NCBI RefSeq assembly: GCF_018143015.1 | Contig: NC_054742.1 | Location: forward strand, 11,577,632 to 11,641,631 | DNA length: 64,000 nucleotides | Origin: Lytechinus variegatus | Lineage: Eukaryota; Echinodermata; Echinoidea; Temnopleuroida; Toxopneustidae | Direction: 5' to 3' | Part shown: piece after piece, positions 2,501 to 43,000 of the stretch | Position numbering within the stretch: position 1 is the stretch's first letter | Layout of the letters: each line of letters opens with the position of its first letter | Notes under the pieces: model-generated | Told to the model about the DNA's origin: nothing | The model's input: only the letters and a program-made list of their open reading frames with translations | The model's database searches: none | Translations under genes and position numbers: made by a program

Positions 2501-2747
2501 GGACAAAAGTAGATACCGGTATACGACGAGGATGAGCAACTCCCACTTCCCTGTCAAACATTTCATGAATGACTTAATTTATGGGTTTGTCTTTTTCGTG
2601 TATATATTGAAATTGTTTTATGAGGAAACATAGGTCACATGCTACGTCCCTAGGAAATCATGTTCAATGTCATGTGATTTTGAATTGTCGACTTTTCATC
2701 GGGAGACGTCGAAGCTGTCAGACGAACACCACCATCGAAACAATAAC

Positions 2748-17058: not shown

Positions 17059-17063
17059 AATGG

Positions 17064-17242
17064 TGTAGGAAGTAGTTACTATGACTCTCAATAAACTACT
17101 CTTTGAGACAGTGGGTTTGTAAACTATGAAGCTGAGTATATATTCTCGTTTCTCTCTGTCGCGCTGCTTACATTCAGCCTTTGCGATATTATACTCATGT
17201 CATCTGTTTTTCTGCCAAGAGGTGGCGCTGCACCTCTTTACA
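17064..17242 (-). repeat. 3' LTR of Ty3/gypsy element
   Basis: 179 bp, TG...CA ends in minus orientation, one mismatch to the copy at 38266-38444. Flanked outside by AATGG. Confidence 0.92.
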
Positions 17243-17787: not shown

Positions 17788-20700
17788 TTACTTCACAAAG
17801 TCTCGGAGATAGGCAGGGGGGTGGATAGTGCGACCACATCTTGTCTTTACTTCCTGCCTCTCTTGTGTTTCAGATCGGTCATCACACTCATCATCTGGGT
17901 TTGTCTGCTTATTTGGTTCAATCATCACTCCATCATCTGGTTCACGACGACTCCAGGTTTCACACACTAATCGCAGATGTCTGCGATTTCTACGATATGT
18001 AGCTCCATCCTCTGTCATCACCACATATGAGTGTGGTTCTGTTGCCATACGAAGGACCTTCGCTCTGCGCCACTCCCTTTGCCTATTGTGGGGTTGGATG
18101 CGAACTACATCTCCTGGTTTCATTGAAGGCAGTTCTTTGACTGAGCGATTGTAGTGATGAGCTTGTTTCTCCTTTGTCTTCTCCCTCTGTTCTTTCACAC
18201 CAGTGGGAACTGCAGGTTCAAGCAACTTCGCAGTTGTTGGTAGGGTAGTGCGGGTTCTTCTATTCATTAAACGCTGCACTGGACTAGAGGAGAATCCTGG
18301 TGTTGGCGTGTTTCTGAATGCCAACAAACTCAGATATGGGTCATTGTGTCCTTCCTTAGCCTTCTTGAGTAGTGACTTGGCAGTCTTCACAGCATTTTCC
18401 ACTTTCCCATTTGCCTGAGGATAAAGTGGAGATGTAGTTGTGTGCTTGAATTCCACTTGGCTCCAAACTTGGCAAATTCATCAGAAGTGAATTGTGGGCC
18501 GTTATCTGTTACAACTTCCTCTGGAATTCCGTGTCTGGCAAATTGGGCTTTCATTTTGTGTATCACACCAGATGAAGTTGTAGTTGTCAGATAGTCCACC
18601 TCAATGAAGTTGGAGTAGTAATCTGTTATAACAAGGTAGTCACGTGAGTCGAGGACAAACAGATCAGCACCAACTTTGGCCCATGGTCTCTCCGGTATCT
18701 CATGTTGCTTTAGCGGCTCCTTCTGCTGTCTGGTTCCCATGGCTCTACATACATCACATCTTTGTATGTAGTTCTTTACTTCACTGTTCATATTGGGCCA
18801 ATAGAGGCATTCTCGTGCTCTCTTCAGACAACTGCTTTCCCCTAGATGTGATGCATGTAGTCGTTCTATCATGCCTTGTCTCATGCTCTTTGGTATCACT
18901 ACCCTTTCACCTCTGAAGATGAGACCATTGGCGATGCTTAACTCATCCCGTATGTGAAAATAGGGTATGACACCAGATGGAAGATCCTGTTGCCTCATTG
19001 GCCATCCATTCATTACTACTGCCTGTATCTCTTGCATCACCTCATCCTTTGCTGTGCACTGTTTTAACTCTTCCAGCAGAGGTCTTGCAATTGGCAGGTG
19101 ATCCACCAGGTTGACCTGCTCCATCTCTGTCTGTTTTCCATCCACTTCCAACACAGGAAGATACGCTCGGCTTAGCGTGTCAGCAATGTACATCTGCTTG
19201 CCTGGATGATAAATGATATCAGCATCATAAGTTTGCAAGCGAAGGATGAGTCTCTGAAGCCTTTTGGAGCTTGATGCATGTTTTTTTTTGCAATGATCTC
19301 CAATGGCTTGTGATCACTTTGAACAGTCACCTTCCTTCCATAGGTATATTGGTGGAATCTTTCCAGTCCAAAGGTAACTGCAAGCAACTCCTTTTCTATT
19401 TGTGCATAGCGACTCTCTGCCTCAGTGAGCGCCCTACTTGTATACGCTATCGGTTGACCTTTCTGCAGGATGGCTGCTCCCAGGCCCTTTTCTGAAGCAT
19501 CTGCCTGCAGAACGAGCCCTATGTCCTTGTCAAAGTACCTCAGAACTGGTTCTGATGTCACAGCCTCCTTGATGCTTTTGACTGCAGCATCATGCACGTC
19601 CAGCCAGCACCATTCTACATCTTTCTTGGTTAGTGATCTGAGAGGTTCACACATCTCACTCAGGTTGGGGAGGAACTTACTCAGGTAATTTACAAATCCG
19701 AGAAAGCGTTGTACCCCAGCAACATCTGTTGGATTCTGCATGTCTCTCACTGCCTTTACCTTTGCTGGGTCTGGTTTCAATCCTTCCTCAGTTATCAGGT
19801 GACCCATGAAAGACACATCTTTCCTTTTGAATTTCAACTTCTGTTTGTTGAGTTTCAGATTTTTCTCCCTGCATCGTTCCATCAAAGCTCTCAGCTTGGT
19901 GTCATGGTCTACTTCTGCATCTGTCATTGTGTCACCCTCACCATACACCAGGATGTCATCTGCTATTGTTCTTACTCCTTGCAGACCTTCTAGTGCTTCA
20001 TCTAGCCTACGCTGAAATTCCTCTGGTGCCGATGCAATACCGAATGGCAGCCTCTTCCATCTGTAACGCCCAAACGGGGTGTTGAATGTAGTTAGGTACG
20101 AGCTGTCCTCCTCAAGTTCTACGTGCCAGAACCCATTCTTTGCATCGACTACTGAAAACACCTTTGCCCTGGACAAATCTGGCAAGATGTCTTCTATTAT
20201 CTTCATTGGGTAGTGGTTCCTTCTGACTGCTTTGTTCAGGTCCTGAGGGTCTAGACAAACCCTCAATTTGTTGTTAGGTTTGTTGACGCACACAAGACTG
20301 GAGACCCATTCTGTTGGAGTATCGACTGGGGCTACAACATCTGCTTCTACCAGTCTCACTAGCTCAGCTTTCAGTCTCTCTTTAATAGCAACTGGTACCC
20401 GTCTTGGAGGATGCACAACAGGTTTTACTGTTGGGTCCAGTTCTATCTTGTACTGGCCAGGTAGCTTCCCAACTCTATCATCGAACACATCAGAATACTC
20501 ATGGCTCAGTTGCTCCGCTGAGCTCAGCCGTGGCAAGTCAGTCACCTCCATGATGTTTTCATGTTGCACGGTGATTAGGCCCATCAATTGACTGGTTTCA
20601 CTACCCAGTATAGGAGTCAGCTTCCCATTATCCACAATGATGAACTCCACATCAAAGATCTCTTGATTCTTGGGATTGACAACTTCTATCGTGCACTTTC

Positions 20701-21721
20701 CCATTGGTTGTTCTGTACTCATATTGTACATTGACAGCAATCCCTTGGTAGGCTGAAGCGACATGGTACTTGTGTCAATGCATGAAGAAGGAAGCACGTT
20801 GCAGGTTGCCCCACAATCTACCTGAAATCTCACTGAATGCCCACGGACCATCATGTTTGCAAAGATCCGTTTCTTTGGCCTTTCTTGAATACTTTTTATC
20901 TCTTCTGGTTCAAGGGTGATCACATGTAGAGTGAAGTCTGGATCCTCCTCTTCTCCTTCTCTGCTAACACCATGTACGTTGCTCAGCATGGTCTTACACT
21001 GGTTCTTGAAATGGTTATATTTCCCACATCGTGCACACTGTTTCCCATAAGCAGGACATTTCTCCTTGATGAATTCATGCTCTTGCCCACAGTATCGACA
21101 TTTACGTGGTTTGCGGGTTCCAGGCTTCTGCTTTGTTGACTGCTTATGAGAGGAGTGCTGGATAGAGGACTCCCTCACTGCATGCACTGCGTCTCCATCT
21201 AATACACCCATTCTACTCTTTGTCAGTTCGGATGCACGGCAAATCTGGATGCACCCCTCCAAAGACAACGCCGTTTCTCTCAAAAGCCTCTCTCTCAAGC
21301 TTGACTCTCTAATTCCACATACAATGCGGTCTCTTAGTAGACCATCTGCAAGCGTAGAAAAATTGCAGTTGGCAGCCAGCAGTTTCAATGCTGTCAAGTA
21401 CGTGTCAAATGTCTCTCCAGCTTGCTGATCCCTTGTGAAGAATTTAAACCGATCCACAGTCTCGTTGCGGGGAGGATTGCAATGATTGTCAAATGCCTTG
21501 ACAACTTCCTCCAAGGTCTCTGTTGCTGGCTTTATGGTTTGATAAAGCTCTCTCCCTTTACTGCCAACAAGGTACAGCATCATCTTTACTTTTGTCTTAT
21601 CTTCTTTGTCAGCCATGGCAAGGTCAAGATATAACATCAATTCTTCCTTCCAGAGTGCCCATACCTGCGGGAGGTTTTGTGCCTCCAAATCAAGCTGCTG
21701 GGGAGGTTTTAGCGCTTCCAT
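17788..21721 (-). pseudogene. gag-pol coding region of the Ty3/gypsy fossil
   Basis: Order in the minus direction: gag from 21721; paired zinc knuckles around 21105-20995 (CRYCGQ, and CARCGKYNHFKNQC of CX2CX4HX4C form); aspartic protease around 20800 (VDCGATCNVLP); reverse transcriptase about 20300-19750 (FSVVDAKNGFWHVELEED, LPFGIASAPEEFQRRL, IADDILVYG); RNase H about 19600-19300 (LQADASEKGLGAAILQ); integrase zinc finger near 18850-18740 (HLGE, CDVC) and catalytic core near 18690-18430 (GADLF, TDNGPQFTSDEF); C-terminal region to 17788. Treated as a fossil with about two breaks. Confidence 0.9.
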
Positions 21722-21777
21722 ATTTGCTTACGCTAGGTCCACTCGACACTGGATGGTTCAAATCAGGGTATGTAGCC

Positions 21778-24700
21778 GGGTCCACCCGCCAGTCATAAGG
21801 ACCACTGGTCATAATACCCGCTAGTTATAAGGACCGCTAGTCATAATAGTCATAAGGGTCGCTATTCATAAGGGGCTTTGTTCATAGAGGTCGCTAGTCA
21901 TAATCAACGATGGGGGTCGCCATTCATAATCAAACAAGAGGGTCGCTAGTCATAATAAAGGAAGAGGGTCGCCAGTCATAAGGAGGAAAAAGGTTCGTTG
22001 ATCATAAGGGTCGCCATTCATAATAGTGGATGAGGGTCGCCAGTCATAATAGTAGAAGGGGTTCGCCAGTCATAATAATGGATGAGGGTCGCCAGTCATA
22101 ATAATGGATGAGGGTCGCCAGTCATAATAGTGGATGAGGGTCGCCAGTCATAATAATAGATGAGGGTCGCCAGTCATAATAATGGATGAGGGTCGCTATT
22201 CATAATAATGGATGAGGGTCGCCAGTCATAATAATGGATGAGGGTCGCCAGTCATAATAGTGGATGAGGGTCGCCAGTCATAATAGTAGAAGGGGTTCGC
22301 CAGTCATAATAGTAGAAGGGGTTCGCCAGTCATAATGGTAGATGAGGGTCGCTAGTCATAAAAGTAGAAGGGGTTCGCCAGTCATAATGGTAGATGAGGG
22401 TCGCTATTCATAATAGTAGAAGGGGTTCGCCAGTCATAATAATGGATGAGGGTCGCTGTTCATAATAATGGATGAGGGTCGCCAGTCATAATAATGGATG
22501 AGGGTCGCCAGTCATAATAGTGGATGAGGGTCGCCAGTCATAATAGTAGAAGGGGTTCGTCAGTCATAATAATGGATGAGGGTCGCTATTCATAATAATG
22601 GATGAGGGTCGCCAGTCATAATAATGGATGAGGGTCGCCAGTCATAATAGTGGATGAGGGTCGCCAGTCATAATAGTAGAAGGGGTTCGCCAGTCATAAT
22701 AATGGATGAGGGTCGCCAGTCATAATAATGGATGAGGGTCGCTATTCATAATAGTAGAAGGGGTTCGCCAGTCATAATAGTAGAAGGGGTTCGCCAGTCA
22801 TAATAGTGGATGAGGGTCGCCAGTCATAATAATGGATGAGGGTCGCCAGTCATAATAGTGGATGAGGGTCGCTAGTCATAATAGTAGAAGGGGTTCGCCA
22901 GTCATAATAGTAGATGAGGGTCGCTTTTCATAATAGTAGAAGGGGTTCGCCAGTCATAATAGTGGATGAGGGTCGCTAGTCATAATAGTAGAAGGGGTTC
23001 GCCAGTCATAATAGTAGAAGGGGTTCGCCAGTCATAATGGTAGATGAGGGTCGCTTTTCATAATAGTAGAAAGAGTTCGCCAGTCATAATAATGGATGAG
23101 GGTCGCCAGTCATAATAGGAGAAAGGGTTCGTCAGTCATAATAATAGATGAGGGTCGCCAGTCATAATAGTAGAAGGGGTTCGCCAGTCATAATGGTAGA
23201 TGAGGGTCGCTTTTCATAATAGTAGAAAGGGTTCGCCAGTCATAATAATGGATGAGGGTCGCCAGTCATAATAGTGGATGAGGGTCGCCAGTCATAATAG
23301 TAGAAGGGGTTCGCCAGTCATAATAGTAGAAGGGGTTCGCCAGTCATAATAGTGGATGAGGGTCGCCAGTCATAATAATGGATGAGGGTCGCCAGTCATA
23401 ATAGTGGATGAGGGTCGCTAGTCATAATAGTAGAAGGGGTTCGCCAGTCATAATAGTAGAAGGGGTTCGCCAGTCATAATGGTCGATGAGGGTCGCTATT
23501 CATAAAAGTAGAAAGGGTTCGCCAGTCATAATAATAGATGAGGGTCGCCAGTCATAATAGTAGAAGGGGTTCGCCAGTCATAATGGTCGATGAGGGTCGC
23601 TATTCATAAAAGTAGAAAGGGTTCGCCAGTCATAATAATAGATGAGGGTCGCCAGTCATAATAGTAGAAGGGGTTCGCCAGTCATAATGGTAGATGAGGG
23701 TCGCTTTTCATAATAGTAGAAAGGGTTCGCCAGTCATAATAATGGATGAGGGTCGCCAGTCATAATAATGGATGAGGGTCGCCAGTCATAATAGGAGAAA
23801 GGGTTTGCCAGTCATAATAATAGATGAGGGTCGCCAGTCATAATAGGAGAAAGGGTTTGCCAGTCATAATAATGGATGAGGGTCGCCAGTCATAATACTT
23901 AAAGGAGTTCGTCAGTCATAAAAGTAGAATGGGTTTGCCAGTCATAATGGTAGATGAGGGTCGCTATTCATAATAGTAGAAGGGGTTCGCCAGTCATAAT
24001 GGTAGATGAGGGTCGCTAGTCATAAAAGTAGAAGGGGTTCGCCAGTCATAATGGTAGATGAGGGTCGCTATTCATAATAGTACAAGGGGTTCGCCAGTCA
24101 TAATAATGGATGAGGGTCGCTGTTCATAATAATGGATGAGGGTCGCCAGTCATAATAATGGATGAGGGTCGCCAGTCATAATAGTGGATGAGGGTCGCCA
24201 GTCATAATAGTAGAAGGTGTTCGCCAGTCATAATAATGGATGAGGGTCGCTATTCATAATAATGGATGAGGGTCGCCAGTCATATTAATGGATGAGGGTC
24301 GCCAGTCATAATAGTGGATGAGGGTCGCCAGTCATAATAGTAGAAGGGGTTCGCCAGTCATAATAGTAGAAGGGGTTCGCCAGTCATAATGGTCGATGAG
24401 GGTCGCTATTCATAAAAGTAGAAAGGGTTCGCCAGTCATAATAATGAATGAGGGTCGCTATTCATAATAATGGATGAGGGTCGCCAGTCATAATAGTGGA
24501 TGAGGGTCGCCAGTCATAATAGTAGAAGGGGTTCGCCAGTCATAATAGTGGATGAGGGTCGCCAGTCATAATAATGGATGAGGGTCGCCAGTCATAATAG
24601 TGGATGAGGGTCGCTAGTCATAATAGTAGAAGGGGTTCGCCAGTCATAATAGTAGAAGGGGTTCGCCAGTCATAATAGTCGATGAGGGTCGCTATTCATA

Positions 24701-25499
24701 AAAGTAGAAAGGGTTCGCCAGTCATAATAGTAGAAGGGGTTCGCCAGTCATAATAGTAGAAGGGGTTCGCCAGTCATAATAGTGGATGAGGGTCGCCAGT
24801 CATAATAATGGATGAGGGTCGCCAGTCATAATAATGGATGAGGGTCGCCAGTCCTAATAGTGGATGAGGGTCGCCAGTCATAATAGTAGAAGGGGTTCGC
24901 CAGTCATAATAATGGATGAGGGTCGCCAGTCATAATAATGGATGAGGGTCGCTATTCATAATAGTAGAAGTGGTTCGCCAGTCATAATAGGAGAAAGGGT
25001 TTGTCAATCATAATAATGGATGAGGGTCGCCAGTCATAATACTTAAAGGAGTTCGCCAGTCATAAAAGTAGAAGGGGTTCGCCAGTCATAATGGTCGATG
25101 AGGGTCGCTATTCATAAAAGTAGAAAGGGTTCGCCAGTCATAATAGTAGAAGGGGTTCGCCAGTCATAACAGTAGAAGGGGTTCGCCAGTCATAATAGTG
25201 GATGAGGGTCGCTATTCATAATAGTAGAAGTGGTTCGCCAGTCATAATAGGAGAAAGGGTTTGTCAATCATAATAATGGATGAGAGTCGCCAGTCATAAT
25301 ACTTAAAGGAGTTCGCCAGTCATAAAAGTAGAAGGGGTTCGCCAGTCATAATGGTAGATGAGGGTCGTTATTCATAATAGTAGAAAGGGTTCGGCAGTCA
25401 TAATAATGGATGAGGGTCGTATGCAGTCATAATAGAAGAAAGTGTTCGCCAGTCATAATAGTAGATGGGGTCGATAGTCATAATGGTAGCTGAGGTAGA
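21778..25499 (+). repeat. left arm: 26-bp satellite array
   Basis: About 140 tandem copies of a 26-bp unit with two main alternating types, GATGAGGGTCGCCAGTCATA+ATAATG and GAAGGGGTTCGCCAGTCATA+ATAGTA. Near the outer edge the units are diverged and irregular; copies become homogeneous inwards. No coding potential. Confidence 0.93.
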
Positions 25500-25509
25500 T
25501 GGTAGATTT

Positions 25510-26732
25510 TGCGTATTGACCTTCAACCCACTACATTTAGCAAATGAATCCAAAATATTTAGTACATTACAGAAACTGGCAGCTGTACCATCGAGAAATA
25601 AAACTGTGTCATCCGCATATTAAAGAACTTTGTATTCTTTTAAGCCAACATAATTTCATTTGACAGAGTATGAATTTCGAATTAACAACCCATGAATTTT
25701 AGAGCATAGCAAAAACGAATCTTAATGTCATTTGCCCATTGACTATAACACTAGAAAATGCATTCTGATAAAGTATTTTTATTCATGTCATGAAAGATTT
25801 GCCAAATTCAAAAATGGAAAGCGTTTTAAACAAAAAATCATGAAAAATCAGAAATCAGGAATATGTTTCTTCTCCGTATACACAATTAAATCATACAAAA
25901 TTTTCCTATTTTCACCAATAAATCGTCCAGACAAGAATCCTGATTGATTAACATGAATAATTATATGGTAATACTTTTTAAAGTCTGTGAGCAATACAAC
26001 TTTACAACAGTTTATAAACAACATTCAACAATGAAATTGATCTCTAATTTTTGATGAAATGTCTTACTTTGTCACCTTAAGGAATTAATGTTATCAAGCC
26101 ATTATTGTTTGTGAGATGGATAATTTTCCAGAAATATAAGCAAAATTCATACTTCGTACCAAGAATATACCTAAGTCCTGAAAGAATGCTTTAAAAAAAA
26201 TCAGTTGAAAATCCATCTCGTCCAGGAGGCTTATTATTTTTCATATTTTTTTAATGCTAAATCAACTTCACTGTAAGATATTTCTCCTTAAGAAGAATCG
26301 TCTTCCTCTGTAAGACTATGGAAACTCTCTTCTCTAATAAGATAAAAAAAAGTTCTTCAGCATCACTATTTGCATATTTATATAACTGTTCATTATATGA
26401 GCCAATTTCTCTTAAAATGTCTGTTTGTTTTGCAATACTGTACCATTATCATGAATCAATTCAACAAATGTTTATTTCTGCTATCCTCTGCTTTTCAAGA
26501 TAAAAAAATATTTAGACGGTTTTTCTCCATATTGCATTATTTGAAGTCTTATCTAAATTGTTCTAATTATTTCCTAAGTAGCCTAATTTTTTGTAAATTT
26601 TCTCTAGTATTTATATTTTGGTCTAGAAGTTTTTCTAAGTTAAGTATTTCAATTTCGAGGTTTTTTTCTACACTCTCTTCTTTTCTCTTCTCTCTTATTA
26701 CATACAATATAGTCGCTGCTCTCAACTCCATC
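25510..26732 (-). mobile_element. L1-like LINE ORF2 fragment, reverse transcriptase part
   Basis: Decayed minus-strand translation shows, in order, MIHDNGTVLQNK, LITLIP, SGRFIGEN, ILYDLIVYTEKK, and at 25619-25608 YADDTVLFLDG followed by FAKCSGLKVN. These are the fingers and palm landmarks of L1-clade reverse transcriptases. It has several stops and frameshifts, and its 3' side stops at the left satellite arm. The 5' (endonuclease) part continues at 30568 beyond an inserted DNA element. Confidence 0.75.
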
Positions 26733-27815
26733 AACAGCAGGGGCGGATCTAGCCTTCGCCAATAGTGGGGGGGGCGGATTTTTTTCAGACATATTTTCCC
26801 CGATCGGCCACTCGAAGATGATTTTTGGTTTCTTTGAAGGGGTAATCCTAATACTCACTTCTTAGCTTTATTCCTATAAATAAACATTTATAGACAATAT
26901 CATATCTTTATTTATATAATGTGAGCGCGAAGCGCGAGCTAATTTTTTGGGAAATCTTTTGTATTTTTTCTGAAAAAGATGTGCATGCAAATGAATAACT
27001 ACTACAAACGTGAAGCACGAGCAGAAATGACTGAATGGCTGATTTTGTGGACAACTCTCCATTTGTTTTGTACACATATTTTCAGATTTTCCCCTTTATT
27101 CTACATATTTCACATTATCACCTCCTGACCTCCTCACTATTTCTTTTGTATTTTGTTAAATGAAATATGAAATATTTTTATTTTGTCGTCATTGTCTGTG
27201 AAATGAAGTTTCATTCCTCCCTGAACACGTGGAATTCCATTATTTTAACATTTTGTGCTTCACGCAAGGAGGACGGTCCTAATCGTCAAATTCGAAAAAA
27301 TTGAAATATTGTATAATTCAAACGATAAAAAACAAAAGAAATAGTGAGTGAGTGACATCATCGACTCTCTCATTTGGATGTAACTGGCTCGTTCATATAA
27401 CTATTTTGTTGAAAATAAGCGAAACTTTGAAATGTCATAACTTTTTTATTTTACATCCGATTTTGATGAAATTTTCATCATTGTGCTTGTCTGATTATTC
27501 TCTATATTGATTTAAATCAACATTTTTCTGAGGTGGACTTGACCTTTAATATAGCGAGCGCAAAGCGCGAGCAGAAATTTTTAATATATACGTTTTGATG
27601 TAATAAAAAATGATCTGTTAACGGCTGCTTGCAGTTAGCCTAAGAACGTTATATATTTCAATAATCAAATAATGCGAGCGCGAAGCGCGAGCTAAAAATT
27701 TTGATATTTCTACCTGAAAAACGAAATTCTGAGCACTTTTTGTCATCGTAAAAAGGATAAGTATGTAACTAAACAATTGATGCGAAGTGCAAGCGGAAAA
27801 ATTCGAGATTTACAC

Positions 27816-29371
27816 CAGTGGCGTAACAGGCGGGGGGGGGGGGGGGGCAGCGGGCAAGCTGCCCCCCGGCGGATTTCACCGGGAAAATAAAAAAAACGGG
27901 AAAAATAAAAGGGATGGAGAAAGAAAGGGAAAGGGAAGGAAAGAGAGAAAGGAAAGGAGGAAAAGGAAAGAGGAAGGGAAAAGTGGAAAGAAAACAAGGA
28001 AAAATGTATTTTTTGGAATAGAAAAGAAGGAAAGCGGGAAGAAGAACGAAAGAAAAACATTTGAGAAAGAACAAATCATTCTGAAATAGACCTATAGAGT
28101 GCAATAGCATGATGGGAAATAAATTAAAAGATGGCAAACAATAGCGGGAAATGAAGGTAGAATGGAATTAGTCCAAAGCAAAATTGGAAAACAAAGAAAA
28201 GGGACAAGAAATAAAAACTTAATAACACGACCGGGCTGACGAGGATAGAAAATAAAAGAGCGGGAAGAAAGAGGAACTGCATACAACATTGTGCTATTAG
28301 CTTGCTAAATTTTATGCAAAAAAAGCTACCGGGGCTTTGCCCCAGACCCCAAGCATAGGGGCTCTTCATCTATGACCTTCAAATGGCTCTATTACGCCCC
28401 CCCCTTAGGGACCCTTCCTACATTAAGCTTTACGTTCAATCACTGGCGTACAGGCGCGGGGGGGGGGTCTTGGTTCAACACCCAAGAGGAAATAAAAGAA
28501 TTTATGGGAGACAACGTATAATGAAATGAATGGAAACAATGAAATGTGTTATTTGCTGAATATAATGGAGAAATTATCACATAATTAGAATTTAATTTCA
28601 ATAGGCAATTTTTTTCCAGCTAGCTTTGCTCGCTTGCGACTTCCCCCCCCCCCACATTGCTATGTTTTGCCCCCTCAAAATATTTGGTTCAACTGGGTTG
28701 AATAAATGTGTTGTGTAAAAGCTATATTCTGTATATACCCGCAATTTGATTAAATAGCGGCAATCTGCGAGGTTTAAATGGCTTTGAGATCAAGAAGTTC
28801 CGGGGGCTCCGCCCCAGACCCCAACCGCATAGCACTGCCGTATATGAGTATGGAAGGGTTGGGCCATGGTCCCCAAAAGTTTTACCATGTAAAAAAAGAT
28901 ATCTCAAAGTTAGATTCTCATGAAAGGTGATTTTTTTCTCGCTTCGCTCGCTCGGGACTTATATTAAACAGCTTTTTAGCACATGCGCCATACTGCGCAC
29001 CTTGATTTTTGTTTTGTTTACTCTGCACGCTACTGCCGCAAATAATCCTGTTAACAGTGGCGTACAGATCACAAAAAAGGGATGGAAAGAGAGAAGAGTG
29101 AAATATATTCTCTGGATATCATGTCAAAATCTATCACAAAATTGGATTTTTGTATTAAAAATGTCAAAATTTTTGATCGCTCGCTCGCATCGCTCTCTCG
29201 CGACTTTTTTTTTAAAAGATAAATTCTGCCTGATACACAATGTCTTGCCCTTTCGAAATCGTCGCCTAATTACACCATTGCGCCTGTTTATACCATGATA
29301 TGACCGGGAAATTTTTGGCTCTTGCCCCCCCCCCCCCCCCCCCTTGGCCACCGACCCCTGTTACGCCGCTG
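27816..29371. mobile_element. nested element with CAGTGGCGTAACAGG ends
   Basis: Left end CAGTGGCGTAACAGG; inverted right end CAGCGGCGTAACAGG; TTTACAC repeated directly outside (27809-27815, 29372-29378), a 7-bp target duplication. Internally CTGGCGTACAG-like starts recur near 28443 and 29058, and a phrase GGGGCT..GCCCCAGACCCC occurs at about 28333 and 28803, so it appears to contain tandem or nested copies. Poly-G follows the left end. Confidence 0.6.
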
Positions 29372-30429
29372 TTTACACCTAAAAACGGGACACTCCATTC
29401 ATGTTTTGTAAATCGTGAAAAGGATGAGTAATTGGATATCTTTCTACATCGATATTGCGAGCGCAAAGCGCGAGCACAAATTTTTTATATTGTGGATTAA
29501 AACTGGATAATGATTTATACAGAGCACAAGCTGCGTATCTGAATAAACGCGCGCGTGTTTCAGATTTAGACCTAGAATCTGAGTGGGCATTCTAAATACC
29601 TTTTTTGATCGTTAAAATCGATAAAGTGAGCGCGAAGCGGGAGCTTAAAACATTTGATATTCCGATCTGAAAAGGGTCAATTTAAGCTCTGTATTTCAAG
29701 CACTTTGTAGGAAAAATTGTGAGGTGTGTATGGATGACATTAAAAAAAGAGTTTCATTATTTTAATTTCATTCAAAAGTTTCATTATTATTACTTTGAGT
29801 TTTGACATAGGACCAGGACATTCCAAGAGCATTATGTCATCATATTAAAATTATGACTATATCTTCTTATTTCTCTTCCTAAGCGCAAGATAAAACTTGT
29901 CGATATTGCATTCTGAAAAAGGGACAATTTGATTCTTGAATTAATATCTTATTTATTAACCTAATAAGCCTAATGTGAGAGCGTGAAATCTATTAATATT
30001 ATGGCCTGAAAACTGTACATTTAAAGCACTTTTGTATTTATGATTTATGAAGAAGATGCGTGAGTTGATAGATTTTCAACAATCAATGCGAGCGCGAATC
30101 GCGAGCCGAAATTTTAAAAATTCAGACCATAAAACAAAAAGTTTTGCAGAGCACTTTTTAAAAATCAATTTGAAAATCAAACAAAATAATGAAAGTACGA
30201 TTTCTGAGCTGAAATATGTTTTCTATGTTGACTTCAAAATTTGATATTTCAATCTCCATATTGATATGTAAATCACCTAACATGCAATGCGGGCGCGAAG
30301 CGCAAGCGATTTTTTTTATAGTGACATTAAGGATTTTAAAAATCATTTTTCTAGGCTTCCCCTCATCTTATTTTATTCACTCGTCTTCCTCTTCTTGTGT
30401 TTCCCCTTCTTTTTTCTCCTCTCTTTTCC

Positions 30430-30437
30430 CTTCTTTT

Positions 30438-30469
<32 letters not shown>

Positions 30470-30493
30470 TTCTTTCTTTCTTTCTTTCTTTCT
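30430..30493. repeat. CTTT microsatellite
   Basis: Pyrimidine run of TTTC/CTTT repeats. Simple sequence; the open frames through it are an artefact. Confidence 0.85.
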
Positions 30494-30567
30494 TCCCCCT
30501 TTTACTTTTTTTTTGGGGGGTGGGCCCCTCGGGCCCCCTAGATCCGCCTAGATCCGCCTATGAACAG

Positions 30568-31260
30568 TGTATAAACAAAACAACTGATATTCAATAATAA
30601 ATCTGAGTTTCTCTTTTCTAACAATTTCAAAAGCTTTATCATGAAGACAATCAATATCAAGATACTGTAAAAACATTCATCTAACACAGTCTCTAAACTG
30701 ACCATTGTGTGATCGGTACGATATCCTAAATCAATATCACATTTTCTAACCAAAGAAATAATATCTGAAGATATCAAAAAATAATGTTTTCTACTTTGCT
30801 TCAATGGTGTGGACTGTCTCCAAGTATAACATTTTGAATTTGGATTTAACTGACGCCATGGATCAACTAAATTAACTCACTGACTCAAAACTTTGGACCA
30901 GGTTCCAATCACCACATAGGATTTTATGAGGATCATCATAGTCCAATAAGATATTTTCTATACATCTAAAAAAATTAGGGTCATTTTGCCTATACAATGA
31001 TATCAATGAAATAAGCAACATAGTTTCCATCAGTATCGCATTTTACTCTCTTAATAACAAGTTGTATGTTTTTATCAAATAATATAGCATTGCATTAGAT
31101 GATTTATATGAGAAAAAAACCTTCCTCCCACTCCTTTAATATGTTTTCTTCCAAATCCTTTAAAAATGAGTGTCCTGTAAACAATAAATATTTGGGTTTT
31201 TTTCCTTTTCAAAAAATGAAATATATAATATGAAGGAATAATTTCATGCTCATATCATAT
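30568..31260 (-). mobile_element. L1-like LINE ORF2 fragment, endonuclease part
   Basis: Minus-strand translation in several frames shows IQLVIKRVKCDTDGNY, NDPNFF and DIDLGYRTDHTMVSLE. The last is the C-terminal signature of the L1-clade apurinic endonuclease domain (GYRTDHS/T). It is the 5' portion of the LINE whose reverse transcriptase lies at 25510-26732. Confidence 0.7.
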
Positions 31261-31472
31261 TCAACATCAACTAAAAATAAGTATAATATAGATAGAAAAC
31301 ACATTTTTCTGTAAAAAAACCAACCTCTATTGAAAAAAAGGCTTTTAGAAAGTACTGTGGTACAGGTTTAGGTCAACACTATCTTAAATGCATATATTCA
31401 AGGAATATTTCCTTGTTATTGGAATGATTCACAATCTACACCTTTTCGCCTAAAGATAATTTGATTTTTTAG

Positions 31473-31848
31473 GGGAGGGTATCATTTCTAACAACTTCTG
31501 CTGGTTATGATGAAAAAAAATCGCCGTAGGTAAAAAAAAATGCCCTTTTTCAAAAGTAAAAAGCCTTTTGGCGAAATGAAAAGTGCGCTTTTTTCAAAAC
31601 TAAATACTGTTCTTGAAGTCCAACATAAAACATTTCAGGATGGTCACAAAAGTAATGTCAATAACATGAGATAATCTATCTTTTTAAAGGGTGTCATTTT
31701 TAATAGCTCCTGCTGGTTATGATTAAAAAAAATCCCATTTTTCAAAATAAAAATGTGCTCTTATTCGAAATTAAATACCCTTCTTGAACTACAACATAAT
31801 ACATATTAGGCTTGAAAATCACCTTTTTTGTGTTCTCACGCTTTGCGC
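31473..31848. repeat. ~212-bp imperfect tandem duplication
   Basis: GGGTATCATTTCTAAC..CTGCTGGTTATGATGAAAA near 31476 recurs as GGGTGTCATTTTTAAT..CTGCTGGTTATGATTAAAA near 31688, each followed by AAATACTGTTCTTGAA / AAATACCCTTCTTGAA. The second copy abuts the right arm of the foldback element. Confidence 0.55.
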
Positions 31849-34800
31849 CCACCTCAGCTATTATGGAGCAAAGTTCCCTTCTACTGACATGCGAACCACT
31901 TCCACTATCATGGCTAGCAACCCTCTTCTACTAATAAGACTAGCGACCCTCATCTACTATTATGACTAGCAAACCCCTACTACACTGTAAAAATGAATTG
32001 CTAATTCAGCACTTACAGTGCTTGTATAGTGACTGCACTAGTAGTGCTGATTTTCTAGTTCACATTTAAACTAGAAAATCAACACTCCCAGTGCAGTCAC
32101 TATACAAGCACTGTAAGCGCTAGATTAGCACCTCATTTTTTACAATGTACTATTATGACTGGAGATCCTCATCCATTATAAATGACCCGCGAACCCCATC
32201 TACTATTATGACTAGCGACCCTCATCCATTATTATGACTGGCGAACCCCATCTACTATTATGACTAGCGACCCTCATCTACCATTATGACTGGCGAACCC
32301 CTTCTACTATTATGACTGACGACCCTCATCTATCATTATGACTGCCGAACCCCTGCTACTATTATGAATAGCGACCCTCATCCACTATTATGACTGGCGA
32401 ACCTCATCTATTATTATGACTAGCGACCCTCATCCATTATTATGACTGGCGAACCCCTTCTACTATTATGAATAGCGACCCTCATCCACTATTATGACTG
32501 GCGAACCTCATCTATTATTATGACTAGCGACCCTCATCCATTATTATGACTGGCGAACCCCTTCTACTATTATGACTGGCGACCCTCATCCATTGTTATG
32601 ACTGGCGACCCTCATCCATTATTATGACTGACGACCCTCATCCATTATTATGACTGGCGAACCCCTTCTACTATTATGAATGGCGACCCCCATCCATTAT
32701 TATGACTGGCGAACCCTTTCTTCTATTATGAATAGCGACCCTCATCCACTATTATGACTGGCGAACCCCTTCTACTATTATGACTGGCGACCCTCATCTA
32801 TCATTATGGCTGGCGAACCCTTTCTACTATTATGAATAGCGACCCTCATCTACCATTATGACTAGCGAACCCCTTCTACTATTATGACTGGCGACCCTCA
32901 TCTATCATTATGACTAGCGACCCTCATCCATTATTATGACTGGCGAACCCCTTCTACTATTATGACCGGCGACCCTCATCCATTATTATGACTGGCGACC
33001 CTCATCCATTATTATGACTGGCGAACCCCATCTACTATTATGACTAGCGACCCTCATCTACCATTATGACTGGCGAACCCCTTCTACTATTATGACTGGC
33101 GACCCTCTTCCACTATTATGACTGGCGACCCTCATCCATTATTATGAATAGCGACCCTCATCCACTATTATGACTGGAGAACCTCATCTATTATTATGAC
33201 TAGCGACCATCATCAATTATTATGACTGGCGAACCCCTTCTACTATTATGACTGGCGACCCTCATCCATATTATGACTGGCGAACCCTTTCTACAATTAT
33301 GAATAGCGACCCTCATCTACCATTATGACTGGCGAACCCCTTCTACTATTATGACAGGCGACCCTCATCTATCATTATGACTGGCGAACCCTTTCTACTA
33401 TTATGAATAGCGACCCTCATCTACCATTATGACTGGCGAACCCCTTCTACTATTATGACTGGCGACCCTCATCCATTATTATGACTGGCGAACCCTTTGT
33501 TCTATTATGAATAGCGACCTTCATCCAATATTATGACTGGCGAACCCCTTCTACCATTATGACTGGCGACCCTCATCCATTTTTATGACTGGCGACCCTC
33601 ATCCATTATTATGACTGACGACCCTCATCCATTATTTGAACTGGCGAACCCCTTCTACTATTATGAATGGCGACCCCCATCCATTATTATGACTGGCGAA
33701 CCCTTTCTTCTATTATGAATAGCGACCCTCATCCACTATTATGACTGGCGAACCCCTTCTTCTATTATGACTGGCGACCCTCATCCATTATTATGACTGG
33801 CGACCCTCATCCATTATTATGACTGGCGAACCCCTTCTACTATTATGACTGGCGACCCTCATCCATTGTTATGACTGGCGACCCTCATCCATTATTATGA
33901 CTGGCGACCCTCATCTATCATTATGACTGGCGAACCCCTGCTACTATTATGACTGGCGACCCTCATCCATTATTATGACTGGCGAACCCCTTCTACTATT
34001 ATGACTGGCGACCCTCTTCCACTATTATGACTGGCGACCCTCATCCATTATTATGAATAGCGACCCTCATCCACTATTATGACTGGCGAACCTTATCATT
34101 TATTATGACTAGCGACCCTCATCCACTATTATGACTGGCGAACCCCATCAACTATTATGACTAGCGACCCTCATCCATTATTATGACTGGCGAACCCCTT
34201 CTACTATTATGACTGGCGACCCTCATCCATTTTTATGACTGGCGAACCCTTTCTACTATTATGAATAGCGACCCTCATCTACAATTATGACTGGCGAACC
34301 CCTTCTACTATTATGACTGGCGACCCTCATCTATCATTATGACTGGCGAACCCCTGCTACTATTATGAATAGCGACCCTCATCCACTATTATGACTGGCG
34401 AACCTCATCTATTATTATGACTAGCGACCATCATCAATTATTATGACTGGCGAACCCCTTCTACTATTATGACTGGCGACCCTCTTCCACTATTATGACT
34501 GGCGACCCTCATCCATTATTATGAATAGCGACCCTCATCCACTATTATGACTGGCGAACCTTATCATTTATTATGACTAGCGACCCTCATCCACTATTAT
34601 GACTGGCGAACCCATCAACTATTATGACTAGCGACCCTCATCCATTATTATGACTGGCGAACCCCTTCTACCATTATGACTGGCGACCCTCATCCATTGT
34701 TATGACTGGCGACCCTCATCCATTATTATGACTGACGACCCTCATCCATTATTATGACTGGCGAACCCTTTCTACTATTATGAAGGGCGACCCCCATCCA

Positions 34801-37800
34801 TTATATGACTGGCGAACCCTTTCTTCTATTATGAATAGCGACCCTCATCCACTATTATGACTGGCGACCCTCATCCATTGTTATGACTGGCGACCCTTAT
34901 CCATTATTATGACTGACGACCCTCATCCATTATTATGACTGGCGAACCCCTTCTACTATTATGAATGGCGACCCCCATCCATTATTATGACTGGCGAACC
35001 CTTTCTTCTATTATGAATAGCGACCCTCATCCACTATTATGACTGGCGAACCCCTTCTTCTATTATGACTGGCGACCCTCATCCATTATTATGACTGGCG
35101 AACCCCTTCTACTATTATGACTGGCGACCCTCATCTATCATTATGACTGGCGAACCCTTTCGCCTATTATGAATAGCGACCCTCATCTACCATTATGACT
35201 GGCGAACCCCTTCTACTATTATGACTGGCGACCCTCATCTATCATTATGACTGGCGAACCCCTGCTACTATTATGAATAGCGACCCTCATCCACTATTAT
35301 GACTGGCGAACCTCATCTATTATTATGACTAGCGACCCTCATCCATTATTATTACTGGCGAACCCCTTCTACTATTATGAATAGCGACCCTCATCCACTA
35401 TTATGACTGGCGACCCTCATCGATTGTTATGACTGGCGACCCTCATCCATTATTATGACTGACGACCCTCATCCATTATTATGACTGGCGAACCCCTTCT
35501 ACTATTATGAATGGTGACCCCCATCCATTATTATGACTGGCGAACCCTTTCTTCTGTTATGAATAGCGACCCTCATCCACTATTATGACTGGCGAACCCC
35601 TTCTTCTATTATGACTGGCGACCCTCATCCATTATTATGACTGGCGAACCCCTTCTACTATTATGACTGGCGACCCTCATCTATCATTATGACTGGCGAA
35701 CCCTTTCGCCTATTATGAATAGCGACCCTCATCTACCATTATGACTGGCGAACCCCTTCTACTATTATGACTGGCGACCCTCATCTATCATTATGACTGG
35801 CGAACCCCTGCTACTATTATGAATAGCGACCCTCATCCACTATTATGACTGGCGAACCTCATCTATTATTATGACTAGCGACCCTCATCCATTATTATGA
35901 CTGGCGAACCCCTTCTACTATTATGAATAGCGACCCTCATCCACTATTATGACTGGCGAACCTCATCTATTATTACGACTAGCGACCCTCATCCATTATT
36001 ATGACTGGCGAACCCCTTCTACTATTATGACTGGCGACCCTCATCTATCATTATGACTGGCGAACCCTTTCTACTATTATGAATAGCGACCCTCATCTAC
36101 CATTATGACTGGCGAACCCCTTCTTCTATTATGACTGGCGACCCTCATCCATTATTATGACTGGCGACCCTCATCCATTATTATGACTGGCGAACCCCTT
36201 CTACTATTATGACTGGCGACCCTCATCCATTGTTATGACTGGCGACCCTCATCCATTATTATGACTGACGACCCTCATCCATTATTATGACTGGCGAACC
36301 CCTTCTACTATTATGAATGGCGACCCCCATCCATTATTATGACTGGCGAACCCTTTCTTCTATTATGAATAGCGACCCTCATCCACTATTATGACTGGCG
36401 AACCCCTTCTTCTATTATGACTGGCGACCCTCATCCATTATTATGACTGGCGACCCTCATCCATTATTATGACTGGCGAACCCCTTCTACTATTATGACT
36501 GGCGACCCTCATCTATCATTATGACTGGCGAACCCCTTCTCCTATTATGACTGGCGACCCTCATCCATTATTATGACTGGCGAACCCCTTCTACTATTAT
36601 GAATGGCGACCCTCATCCATTATTATGACTGGCGAACCCTTTGTTCTATTATGAATAGCGACCTTCATCCACTATTATGACTGGCGAACCCCTTCTACCA
36701 TTATGACTGGCGACCCTCATCCATTGTTATGACTGGCGACCCTCATCCATTATTATGACTGACGACCCTCACCCATTATTATGACTGGCGAACCCCTTCT
36801 ACTATTATGAATGGCGACCCTCATCCATTATTATGACTGGCGAACCCTTTCTTCTATTATGAATAGCGACCCTCATCCACTATTATGACTGGCGAACCAC
36901 TTCTTCTATTATGACTGGCGACCCTCATCCATTATTATGACTGGCGAACCCCTTCTACTATTATGACTGGCGACCCTCATCTATCATTATGACTGGCGAA
37001 CCCTTTCGCCTTTTATGAATAGCGACCCTCATCTACCATTATGACTGGCGAACCCCTTCTACTATTATGACTGACGACCCTCATCTATCATTATGACTGG
37101 CGAACCCCTGCTACTATTATGAATAGCGACCCTCATCCACTATTATGACTGGCGAACCTCATCTATTATTATGACTAGCGACCCTCATCCATTATTATGA
37201 CTGGCGAACCCCTTCTACTATTATGAATAGCGACCCTCATCCACTATTATGACTGGCGAACCTCATCTATTATTATGACTAGCGACCCTCATCCATTATT
37301 ATGACTGGCGAACCCCTTCTACTATTATGACTGGCGACCCTCATCTATCATTATGGCTGGCGAACCCTTTCTACTATTATGAATAGCGACCCTCATCTAC
37401 CATTATGACTGGCGAACCCCTTCTACTATTATGACTGGCGACCCTCATCTATCATTATGACTAGCGACCCTCATCCATTATTATGACTGGCGAACCCCTT
37501 CTACTATTATGACTGGCGACCCTCATCCATTATTATGACTGGCGACCCTCATCCATTATTATGACTGGCGAACCCCTTCTACCATTATGACTGGCGACCC
37601 TCATCCCTATTATGACTGGCGACCCTTATGATCAATGTAGCCTCTTCCTTTTTATGACTAGCGACCCTCATCTAGTATTATGAATTCCGACCCTCATTGT
37701 TGATTATGACTGGCGATCCTTATGATCAATTACCCTTATGGTCCATTATGAATAGCAACCCTTATCTTGCATTATGAAAATCGGACCTTATGACCCATGG

Positions 37801-37945
37801 TCCTTATGACCTTATGACTAGCGACCCCTTTTGCCTATTATGAATAGCGAGCTTTTGGGTATAGGATTTTACACGTTATGACTAGCGGTCCTTATGACCA
37901 GTTAGTATTATGACTTATGGTCCTTATGACTGACGGGCTTATCCC
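31848..37945 (-). repeat. right arm: inverted 26-bp satellite array
   Basis: About 225 copies of the same 26-bp unit as the left arm in opposite orientation (TATGACTGGCGACCCTCATC + CATTAT). Higher-order structure exists: the rare junction CGAACCCTTTCGCC occurs at 35151, 35697 and 36997, spaced 546 (21 units) and 1300 (50 units). The outer end is irregular, as in the left arm. Confidence 0.92.
31983..32147. mobile_element. 165-bp MITE inside the satellite array
   Basis: It interrupts a 26-bp unit. The ends CACTGTAAAAA and TTTTTTACAATG are inverted, the target is TA (31981-31982, 32148-32149), and long internal arms (CTAGAAAATC-centred; GACTGCACT / AGTGCAGTC; TATACAAGCACTGTAA on both sides) make it almost a hairpin. 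Tc1/mariner-type by its target. Confidence 0.75.
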
Positions 37946-37953
37946 ATGTAGCC

Positions 37954-38265
37954 AAAGGCAGAGTCAGAGATCAATTCACTGTTTCAAGCAAAATCACTGG
38001 TGCCAACCCAAATCTCCTTTGAATTCATATATGTCATGGATGCTCTAATACGGGCCAGATCCAGTCCCGATATGATTTATTTCTCGTTATAATGAACATT
38101 GACAGGCTTAATGAACTTAAGGCTATGGATGTAGAGTTTACTCACGTTCATTCTCTCTGCCTCTGACAGGGCAGTCCCACAGCTACAGTCTCGCGTAGGG
38201 TGCCTCAAATCTAGCACAAAATAAACACGTAACAGCTCCAAACATCGCCACCACTCCTGACACCA
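37954..38265 (-). other. leader of the Ty3/gypsy element with primer-binding site
   Basis: Non-coding 5' internal region of the LTR element between its upstream LTR and the foldback insertion. The primer site TGGTGTCAGGAGTGG lies at about 38251-38265 in minus orientation. Confidence 0.8.
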
Positions 38266-38444
38266 TGTAGTAAGTAGTTACTATGACTCTCAATAAACTA
38301 CTCTTTGAGACAGTGGGTTTGTAAACTATGAAGCTGAGTATATATTCTCGTTTCTCTCTGTCGCGCTGCTTACATTCAGCCTTTGCGATATTATACTCAT
38401 GTCATCTGTTTTTCTGCCAAGAGGTGGCGCTGCACCTCTTTACA
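38266..38444 (-). repeat. 5' LTR of Ty3/gypsy element
   Basis: 179 bp, one mismatch to 17064-17242, TG...CA ends in minus orientation, flanked outside by AATGG at 38445-38449. Confidence 0.92.
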
Positions 38445-38660
38445 AATGGGAGCTCAGGTGGGGAATCTGAAACCCCAATTTCAGATTTTGGGAGAGCTTC
38501 ATTTCTCCCGTTTAAACTGGGGTGGGGTTCATCTGACTGCTGATAATTTCTTGCGTGTTAGTCAATGGGAGCTCAAGTTGGGTATTGACACCCCAATTTC
38601 AGTTTTTGGGAAAGTTGCATTTCTCGCGTTTAAACTGGAGTGGGGTCGATTAAGTGACTG
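38445..38660. repeat. two ~120-bp tandem units at the LTR target
   Basis: AATGGGAGCTCAGGTGGGG at 38445 recurs as CAATGGGAGCTCAAGTTGGG near 38566, each followed by ACCCCAATTTCAG.TTTTGGG and CGTTTAAACTGG.GTGGGGT. The second unit is preceded by TTGCGTGTTAGT, which resembles the sequence just left of the LTR element at 17046-17058. Confidence 0.75.
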
Positions 38661-40009: not shown

Positions 40010-43000
40010 TATTGCTGTTGTTCTGTAGATTCGATTAGACATAGTTTGTGTACCGGTCTAACCAGTATAGTTGATTTGGTTTTTATTTTTGCCGTCCTTA
40101 CTAAACCGTCTCTACCAGAAAATGTTTCTGTTATCATTTTCACTAACCGTTAATTCCTCAGCAATCTGTCCATCATGACAAAAAACTTCCATTTGAGAAC
40201 ACTATACCCCAGTTCCACTTCTCATCAATTCTCTTCTCCAACCGTAACTGCCGCAAGCAATTAAGTATCAAAACACCTGTTTCTTGACGTTGGTCTGAAA
40301 AATAACACAACAGCCCGGCGTATACAGTCACAGCAGGGGGCCACACACGATGGGATGCATGCGCAGCGCTGAGTGCGGTCCCTGTAATCATGCCGTCATT
40401 TTTATTTGCTTACTTTCCTTATTCCGAGGTCGATTTACCTCATTCGAAATTGAAAATGGACTAACATTGGGTTACTGAATACAATATGCCTTTGAAAACG
40501 TGATTAAATATGGAATACAATAATTTCATTCCGAAGGTCCTTCTACAGGCAGACAAGTCTTACGTAATAGCACAGCTGTTGTTTATCATTTCGTCCTTGG
40601 CTCAACGCTCGTTTGGCTGGCCCATGGTGGTGAAATTGAGACAAGGGGATTACCTGGCCAAGATGGGTTTATCGGGGTTGGAAATGTTTGAGAGTTTCCA
40701 AACGAAAATAGGGGTATCCGACCGCAGTTTGCAGTCCGAAGTGCGGTCGAGAATCAAACGGGAAATTTTTGTAATGTGAAGTCCATCTATGAACTAGGAG
40801 TCTGGATCTTGGCTCCTTCTTCAGACAGCAGTATGAATTCTGGTCCATGAATCCATCTATGGCTCACTACCAGATCTCGTGCACTCATGCCTCTGCTTAC
40901 ATCATCCGCTGGATTCTCCTTACTGTTGACATGGTGCCACTGCTTCACATCACTGACTGAGTGAATCACTGACAATCTATTGGCAACAAAGGTGTGAAAT
41001 CGTTTGCCCTCATTCTTGATGTATGCAAATACAATCATGCTGTCAGTCTGAAACACTGAGTCCTTTAGTGGTAGACCCAGGTTTCTCCTCACTCCTTCAC
41101 CGCAACAGTAGCAGCCATCAGCTCCAGGCGAGGTATAGTAGTCCTTTTCAGAGGAGCGAGGTGAGATTTGGCAAAGACAAGGCTGCTGCAGACTTGTCCA
41201 TCAGAATTCTTGGCTACCAGGTAGGTAACTGTTCCATAGGCTTCTTCAGAGGCATCAGCGAAATGATGTAGCTGATACTCAATCTTGGCACCATAGCTTG
41301 TGGGAATCATACATCTTGGCACCTTGAAGTGTTCTACCTCAGGAAGTTGTTTTACCCACTGTTGCCAAATCTCCTGTTCAACATCTGGAATTGGGTCATC
41401 CCATCCTAACTTCATTGTCGTCAGTCTTTGCATAAGATGCTTAGCTTTCAAGATGAAGGGACTCAAGAAGCCAAGCGGGTCATAAATGCTTGACACAATA
41501 CTAAGCAATCCCTTTCTTGTCAGAGGTTTGTCCTTTATCAATGTCTTGTACCTCAAGACACTGTTCCTGTATATCCCAGTTGATACCCAAGGCTCTCTCA
41601 ACTGGAAGTGGTTCCCTGTTTAAGTCTAAGCCTTTGACTTGCTTAGCCCTCTCTTCCTCTGGGATGGATTGAAGAACTTTGGTTCGATTGCTAATCCACT
41701 TAGTAAGTCTAAACCCTCCCTTCTGCTACAGGCTCCTCAACTCAGTAGCTATTCTAATTGCAGCATCTTCATCAGGCAAAGCCACCAAGCAATCATCAGT
41801 GTAGAAATTATACTTCACAATTCTTGTGACATCAGGGCTGAATTCAGTTTCATAGTCCTCAGCTGTCCTGCAGAGAGAGCATAGCTGCATACACTCGGAT
41901 TCCAGGTTCCCCCAAGCAAGTGAACACACATTCGGTAGGTTAGGGGGTTTTCTTCCATGTTACTTTTTGGCCACCATAGAAATCTCGGAACGTCTCGGTC
42001 TGCGGCAGGCACTCGTACTTGATGAAACATGGCTTCGACATCTGCCATCAAGGCCACAGGAGCTGATCGAAACCTCAACAACACCCCGATCAGCTTGTTT
42101 GTAAGATATGGTCCCTGGTAGACTACCTTCTTCAGCGACAAGCCTTTCCATTCAGTCGCACAATCGAAAACAATCCTTACTTTCCTAGGCTTCTGCGGAT
42201 GGAATACTGCATGGTGTGGCAAATACCATTCATATTGGTTCTTACTTTCCTCCTGTTCATTGACTTCTTCAGCATAACCTTTTTGCGAAGAGCTTTGTTA
42301 TGCCGTCTGCATACTTCTGGAGGAGGCCATCACTTTGGTTAAGCTTTCTCCTTAGGCTTTCAAGTCTCCTCGGAGCTAACCAAAGATTATTCTGGAGATT
42401 GGGAGGTCTCTTTTTGAAGGGGATAGGAAGCCGGTAGTGGCCGTCTTCTGTGCAGATGCCTTGCTCCCATTCTGCCAAAGCCTTCACATCGTTTCTGGAC
42501 ATTCCCCTCTCATCCTTCAGCAGATTAGCAGTCTCCAGCTTCCAGAATTTCTCTAACTGCTTCTCGAGACAAAGATTTCCTTTGGTGAAGGTCCTTGTGG
42601 CATATATTTCTTCCTTTTTCTCTGTGGTATTCAGAGGACCATGGAGCGTCCATCCGAGACAGGTCCTTATTGCGTACGGTCCCTCTTTTCCTTTTCTGAT
42701 CTCTAAAGGCAGCAAGGCTTCCGGCACGTCTTGGCCGATTATCAGACCCACTTCCTCCTCGGTTGCCAAAGGGATATTGAAACCTTTAAGGTTGGTCAAT
42801 CCTTTAATCTCTTCATACTTGGCCATGTGAATGCCCTTGACGTTGATACTGTCCTTTGTATAAACGCATGGCAGCTTCACCCTTTTACTGTCGTCTCCAG
42901 TATCCACTATAAGACTTACAGCTTCAGTGTGGACAATATTTTCTTTCCTCTCAAGAGTTGTTAGCAGGAGCTTCTCCTTTATGCCTTTAACTCCTAGGCG

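Follow-up and report, generated by a model that had tools for sequence, protein, structure and literature searches.

What is the 16-kb block of repetitive DNA that splits a retrotransposon in the genome of the sea urchin Lytechinus variegatus, and did it arrive there as a single mobile element? The block lies in a stretch of 64,000 nucleotides (assembly GCF_018143015.1, contig NC_054742.1, positions 11,577,632 to 11,641,631; hereafter the window, numbered from its first letter). It adds a large new member to an established class of mobile DNA, the foldback transposons. That a foldback-type element transposed into the leader of a Ty3/gypsy element is well supported by nested target duplications, a pair of long terminal repeats (LTRs), matching element ends and inverted satellite arms. 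A previous interpretation based on the letters alone (the sequence-only reading) had already described a foldback element nested in a gypsy copy, but had overstated the match between the ends and missed the anatomy of the core. Most probably, one non-autonomous foldback DNA transposon was inserted as a unit, by cut-and-paste, into the gypsy leader with duplication of 8 bp of the target.

The host was identified as a Ty3/gypsy-type element on the minus strand by Pfam matches to protease, reverse transcriptase (RVT_1), RNase H and integrase (Integrase_H2C2 and rve) domains. These fell in two of its three open frames; the remaining one (17788–18477) contained no Pfam domain. The LTR pair differs at one of 179 positions and is flanked by a 5-bp target duplication, AATGG, indicating that both flanks of the insert belong to one gypsy copy. 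The insert interrupts the leader: 312 bp separate it from the 5′ LTR and, with the duplication excluded, 48 bp from the first gag ATG that follows. The start of the leader resembles a tRNA-Leu primer-binding site. Domains, LTRs and AATGG thus bear out the sequence-only reading, which had assigned the leader to one side of the insert and the start of gag to the other. It had also called the host young, which agrees with the LTR identity but less so with a coding region divided into three frames by breaks near 19.2–19.3 kb and 18.4–18.5 kb; the host is therefore young by its LTRs without being open throughout. By parting the LTR promoter and leader from gag-pol, the insertion has probably inactivated this copy.

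The borders of the insert were defined by an exact 8-bp pair, ATGTAGCC, which abuts both of its GGG...CCC ends precisely as had been claimed, and delimits an element proper of 16,168 bp (21778–37945). An exact 8-mer was shared by two random places of the window in 154 of 2,000,000 draws and, when ±5 bases were allowed on both sides, in 83 of 20,000 draws, pairs of places less than 2 kb apart having been skipped yet counted in these denominators. Further copies of ATGTAGCC are present at 8720, at 54496 on the minus strand, and at 37635 within the right arm. The latter was considered as an alternative right border and rejected, since it lacks a terminal motif and is therefore taken as chance. 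The inner duplication pair, the LTR pair and the outer duplication pair agree with one another, which implies that one gypsy copy took one insert. Both the foldback element and the host element that surrounds it are thereby delimited to the base.

Comparison of the ends supported the same borders. The left end, GGGTCCACCCGCCAGTCATAAGGACCA, and the complement of the right end, GGGATAAGCCCGTCAGTCATAAGGACCA, gave a 69-base alignment that contains 56 identities, 12 mismatches and 2 gaps. The score of this alignment was 40, as compared with a best of 11 in 2000 shuffles, and with best scores of 9 (n = 99) and 11 (n = 99) when the ends were set against internal in-register positions of the other arm. 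The terminal 20 bases, earlier described as inverted matches, match imperfectly, with 15 identities, 4 mismatches and 2 gaps, although the 69-base score is far above those of shuffles and internal registers.

The arms, of 3.7 kb on the left and 6.1 kb on the right, are composed of 26-bp tandem units, which span 21889–25495 and 32148–37626. They are inverted with respect to each other and up to 86% complementary over 2803 nt. Both have the consensus TCATAATAGTAGATGAGGGTCGCCAG, which tiles 95% of the left arm (136 units) and 92% of the right arm (215 units); they also agree in their two most abundant 26-bp unit types. The description of the element as almost pure satellite consequently holds for the arms but not for the 6.3-kb core, which is other mobile DNA; a hairpin of 155 bp in the right arm, resembling a miniature inverted-repeat transposable element (MITE), had also been missed. 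No open frame of at least 80 amino acids (stop to stop) lies wholly inside an arm, and two extend from host sequence into the left outer end.

Comparison within and between arms was confined to units whose anchors have a spacing of exactly 26 bp, namely 131 of 141 on the left and 199 of 219 on the right. Mean identity was 0.828 within either arm and 0.827 between arms. The fraction of units whose nearest neighbour was in the same arm amounted to 0.735, versus 0.522 in 200 label shuffles (s.d. 0.017, largest 0.594), an excess indicating that amplification was mostly local despite the equal mean identities. Exact repeats reached 170 bp in the left arm and 342 bp in the right, and the longest one between arms measured 104 bp. 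From these comparisons the arms may be read as a common ancestral array later reshaped by local duplication in each arm, which would also account for most of their growth.

Repeat arrays of this size (26-bp units over 3.7 and 6.1 kb) are hard to assemble, and satellite reads could in principle have fused unrelated segments inside the gypsy copy. We consider an assembly artefact of this kind highly improbable: the gypsy LTR pair, AATGG and the exact ATGTAGCC pair agree independently, and the window contains no N. The agreement of LTRs and duplications secures the outer frame of the foldback element better than the junctions between arms and core.

The outermost part of each arm showed a distinct organization. 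In an outer domain of 232 bp on the left and 322 bp on the right, several TCATAA anchors are 16 bp apart, and the ten spacings of 16 bp (3 on the left, 7 on the right) are all among the outermost 15 of their arm. Within the element, the signature TCATAAGG starts only at 21793–22002 and its complement only at 37624–37922; one more copy is found in the window at 47738, outside the element. The inner arm ends contain no exact copy of this 16-bp signature, and are therefore not element ends. This distribution bears on whether the locus could be a composite transposon, in which two separate satellite-bearing elements move together around a segment of a long interspersed nuclear element (LINE). There is a precedent in Drosophila, where the Ising element sits between foldback copies (PMC6431247; this and the papers below are cited from excerpts of their text), and a non-satellite core between similar arms of unequal length is what such a composite would produce. 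Two complete elements, however, should display the terminal motif at their inner ends too, and the exact signature is restricted to the outer 232 and 322 bp. With the 16-bp repeat limited to the outer 0.3 kb or so at either end, a single element is favoured over a flanking pair, and a composite is very unlikely.

The 16-bp unit, TCATAAGGACCGCTAG, agrees with the 26-bp unit at 13 of 16 positions once a 10-bp spacer is removed from the latter. The repeated unit core, GGNYCGCYAGTCATAA, might represent arrayed transposase-binding sites, by analogy with Galileo, whose internal repeats of the terminal inverted repeats (TIRs) bind the THAP domain of the transposase (PMC3688188). A more far-reaching proposal, which we put forward as speculative and rather doubtful, is that each 26-bp unit consists of a 16-bp terminal transposase-binding unit plus a 10-bp spacer of about one helical turn. 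Amplification would then keep the sites in phase and build arms of several kb that stall replication, so that the element would capture foreign cores, such as LINE fragments, and spread satellite through the genome. The restriction of the 16-bp units to the outer ends, and their relation to the 26-bp unit (16 + 10), suggest a testable route from a possible transposase-binding site to a satellite.

The core, of 6.3 kb, was resolved into what is likely a LINE-1-type ORF2 fragment and, dividing it in two, a hAT-like element of 3.8 kb; neither component had been noticed in the sequence-only reading. Read along the minus strand, the core contains, in order, pieces of one decayed LINE ORF2, several of them recognized by eye from known motifs. 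In Pfam searches an upstream piece matched Exo_endo_phos_2 (E = 0.0046) and the piece containing the YADD motif matched RVT_1 (E = 0.0068), in both cases below the curated cut-off. In a search of PDB entries, the endonuclease piece matched residues 176–236 or 238 of LINE-1 ORF2p, at the end of the endonuclease, with E of 0.07–0.09 for four endonuclease chains and 0.3–0.5 for four full-length entries. The YADD piece matched residues 700–737 of 1275 (E about 0.006), and did slightly better against two other reverse transcriptases (E = 0.0015 and 0.004). The two pieces are spaced by 5071 nt, or by 1241 nt after subtraction of the nested element and one duplication copy (3830 bp), where about 1390 would be expected. 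Combined, order, strand and spacing make it likely from sequence that the pieces derive from one LINE-1-type ORF2. The interrupting element, hAT-like in appearance only, has a likely duplication, ATCAACAG (26730–26737) and ATGAACAG (30560–30567), matching at 7 of 8 positions, and carries GGCGGATCTAG near its ends.

The LINE sequence breaks off near residue 737 of 1275, at the border of the left arm. Since an insertion by a LINE would be expected to keep its 3′ end, here cut off, a fragment captured between the arms is the better reading. Capture would have preceded the jump and may have occurred by break repair or by fork stalling and template switching; the analogy is with the FB4 Pack-TIRs of Drosophila, for whose capture of the gene Ssk fork stalling and template switching has been proposed (PMC8277862). 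As an alternative, the element could have jumped as a smaller foldback and received its core later in situ, either because a LINE inserted there or because sequence was exchanged with a further copy. That the foldback element does take up insertions, be it before or after the jump, is shown by the MITE and the nested hAT-like element. Nevertheless, the LINE lacks its 3′ part, and its roughly 1.7 kb are fragmented into six or more short frames (several identified by eye), against two breaks in about 3.9 kb of host. With more frame breaks, the LINE looks older than the host insertion, and we regard later acquisition of the core as unlikely. Under the preferred reading of a single transposed unit, the LINE fragment that ends where the arm begins may well be a core acquired by capture.

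No transposase domain was detected by Pfam in 37 stop-free core pieces, in agreement with the element having been described as devoid of transposase. The pieces comprised 26 of the 34 of at least 55 amino acids in the nested element (the eight left out were shorter than 60) and 11 of the 43 of at least 28 amino acids in the remaining core. Besides two sub-threshold LINE domains, two matches to domains of unknown function were obtained (E = 0.072 and 0.097) and were taken as chance. The transposase would act in trans and most likely be of the Mutator (Mutator-like element, MULE) superfamily, as suggested by the length of the duplication (8 bp), the GGG terminus and the long ends made of tandem repeats. 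Duplications of 8 bp are also made by hAT and some other elements, and are thus not specific to MULEs. Since hAT ends begin with CAG or TAG and those analyzed here with GGG, a hAT origin of the whole element was discarded. MULEs generate target duplications of 8–11 bp, a range that includes the 8 bp found here, and their ends are often long (PMC6446971); the Mutator superfamily is also where the majority of foldback elements have been placed (PMC4079207). The MULE group Rehavkus, with 9-bp duplications (PMC6446971), was rejected because the duplication is here exactly 8 bp.

The sequence-only reading had named FB, Galileo and TU as established foldback families and had treated assignment to one of them as tentative. 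Galileo, a member of the P superfamily, likewise has long, internally repetitive ends (PMC3573991, PMC3688188). However, it duplicates 7 bp instead of exactly 8, it has a P-superfamily transposase, a domain absent from the pieces searched, and its ends reach about 1.26 kb (PMC3573991, PMC3688188). A Galileo-like element is accordingly very unlikely.

Several observations weigh against the interpretation of the locus as a single transposed foldback element of Mutator type. The element is known here from a single copy, and the outermost 14 bases of its two ends are poorly conserved, with just 9 identities. The arms have only 7 exact unit types in common (of 38 on the left and 50 on the right), and nearest-neighbour units are mostly within one arm. 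Many left–right registers are about equally complementary (83–86%), the best ungapped left–right offsets are multiples of 26 bp (0.763, 0.762, 0.760 and so on), and the arms are not collinear inside; a scan of offsets for positional homology between the arms found none past the 26-bp register, beyond the outer end. The lengths of the arms depend on the assembly, and the LINE domain matches are weak one by one. Because no transposase was found, the superfamily rests on duplication length and layout.

The element has the long inverted tandem-repeat ends of the foldback structural class and its flanking target duplication (ATGTAGCC, compared with 8–10 bp in Tetris and Tm1). Its closest counterparts in layout are Tetris (PMC4079207) and Tm1 (PMC3169594). 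Tetris, from Drosophila virilis, shares the long inverted ends with a tandem-repeat domain within an outer flanking domain, the variable non-coding middle, the lack of transposase and duplications of 8–10 bp, whereas its units are of about 220 bp and its ends of up to 1,735 bp (PMC4079207). The Mutator/Foldback element Tm1 of root-knot nematodes has composite ends with a varying number of short tandem motifs of about 14 bp, short non-inverted boundary motifs and, in some copies, nested insertions. It differs in its duplications, most commonly of 9 bp (45 of the 53 complete elements have 8–10 bp), in the transposase that some copies encode and in its TIRs, which average 93% identity (PMC3169594). 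FB4 Pack-TIRs similarly have repetitive foldback ends around a captured foreign segment that is moved as a unit, although the segment is a gene (Ssk) instead of a LINE fragment, and several copies have been shown for FB4 (PMC8277862). Some members of the MULE groups Phantom (duplications of 8–10 bp) and Rehavkus contain a minisatellite near one end, beside the transposase gene, whereas here the minisatellite makes up both arms (PMC6446971). The arms described here are longer than the ends given for Tetris and Galileo in the excerpts cited. The existence of TU elements in sea urchins is cited in PMC4079207.

A foldback element with 26-bp units is not described in the titles and abstract openings surveyed, which did not extend to subscription journals, including those with the TU papers. 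TU elements have 8-bp duplications and short outer tandem repeats of 15 bp, a likeness of general description. The 26-bp unit pattern gave 0 matches in viral_contigs and in genome_contigs, collections without eukaryote genomes. In viral_contigs a 15-base motif of the ends occurred at 19 scattered places, none of them surrounded by a repeat of the element. When the ends, left arm and core were compared by BLAST with these 19 loci, the matches spanned at most 26 bases (best E = 3e-4), essentially the motif itself; these loci were discarded as relatives and the matches taken as chance.

Table 1. Features of the foldback element and of its gypsy host (window coordinates).
Feature	Position	Strand	Remark
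Gypsy target duplication AATGG, left copy	17059–17063		pairs with 38445–38449
Gypsy 3′ LTR, 179 bp	17064–17242	-	178/179 identical to 38266–38444
Gypsy gag-pol region	17788–21727	-	three overlapping open frames, two frame breaks
Target duplication ATGTAGCC, left copy	21770–21777
Left outer end: GGG terminus and outer domain	21778–22009	+	16-bp-spaced units, TCATAAGG signature
Left arm, 26-bp tandem units	21889–25507	+	outer edge overlaps outer domain
Core (middle domain)	25508–31849		borders approximate
Decayed ORF2 fragment, likely LINE-1-type	25515–31042	-	endonuclease (about 30690–31042) to reverse transcriptase (YADD at 25619); interrupted by 26738–30559
Non-autonomous element, hAT-like in appearance	26738–30559		nested in LINE fragment
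Right arm, inverted 26-bp tandem units	31850–37626	-
MITE-like hairpin, inner right arm	31985–32139		62 identities between two 75-base half ends
Right outer end and outer domain	37624–37945	-	CCTTATGA signature
Target duplication ATGTAGCC, right copy	37946–37953
Gypsy leader adjoining 5′ LTR	37954–38265	-
Gypsy 5′ LTR	38266–38444	-
Gypsy target duplication AATGG, right copy	38445–38449

Other features of the window were also recorded. The whole window gave 0 Rfam matches at the gathering score and 0 tRNA genes (bacterial settings). Adjoining the gypsy copy, a frame of 223 amino acids (15776–16447, minus strand) appears by eye to be LINE-1-type ORF1-like; its only Pfam match was a weak one to tropomyosin (E = 0.0077). 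Remains of a BEL/Pao retrotransposon lie at 40787–43222 on the minus strand, with Peptidase_A17 in 41089–41619 (E = 6e-45); the neighbouring frames look BEL/Pao-related by eye, 42269–43222 having no Pfam match. A near-perfect palindrome of 557 bp (7439–7995, 99.5% self-complementary) is part of a unit (7428–8045) flanked by the 12-bp direct repeat AATCATTACTTT (7428–7439 and 8034–8045). Its centre looks like two head-to-head hammerhead-like motifs, presumably as in Penelope-like elements, and in Rfam it produced only matches below the gathering score, to two miRNA hairpin families and one lncRNA. Tandem repeats were found at 8349–8964 (four copies of a 157-bp unit) and at 11248–12824 (29 copies of a 55-bp unit, 93% matches). 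Finally, a probable host exon of a sugar transporter is located at 2634–3224 on the plus strand (Sugar_tr, E = 1.2e-18).

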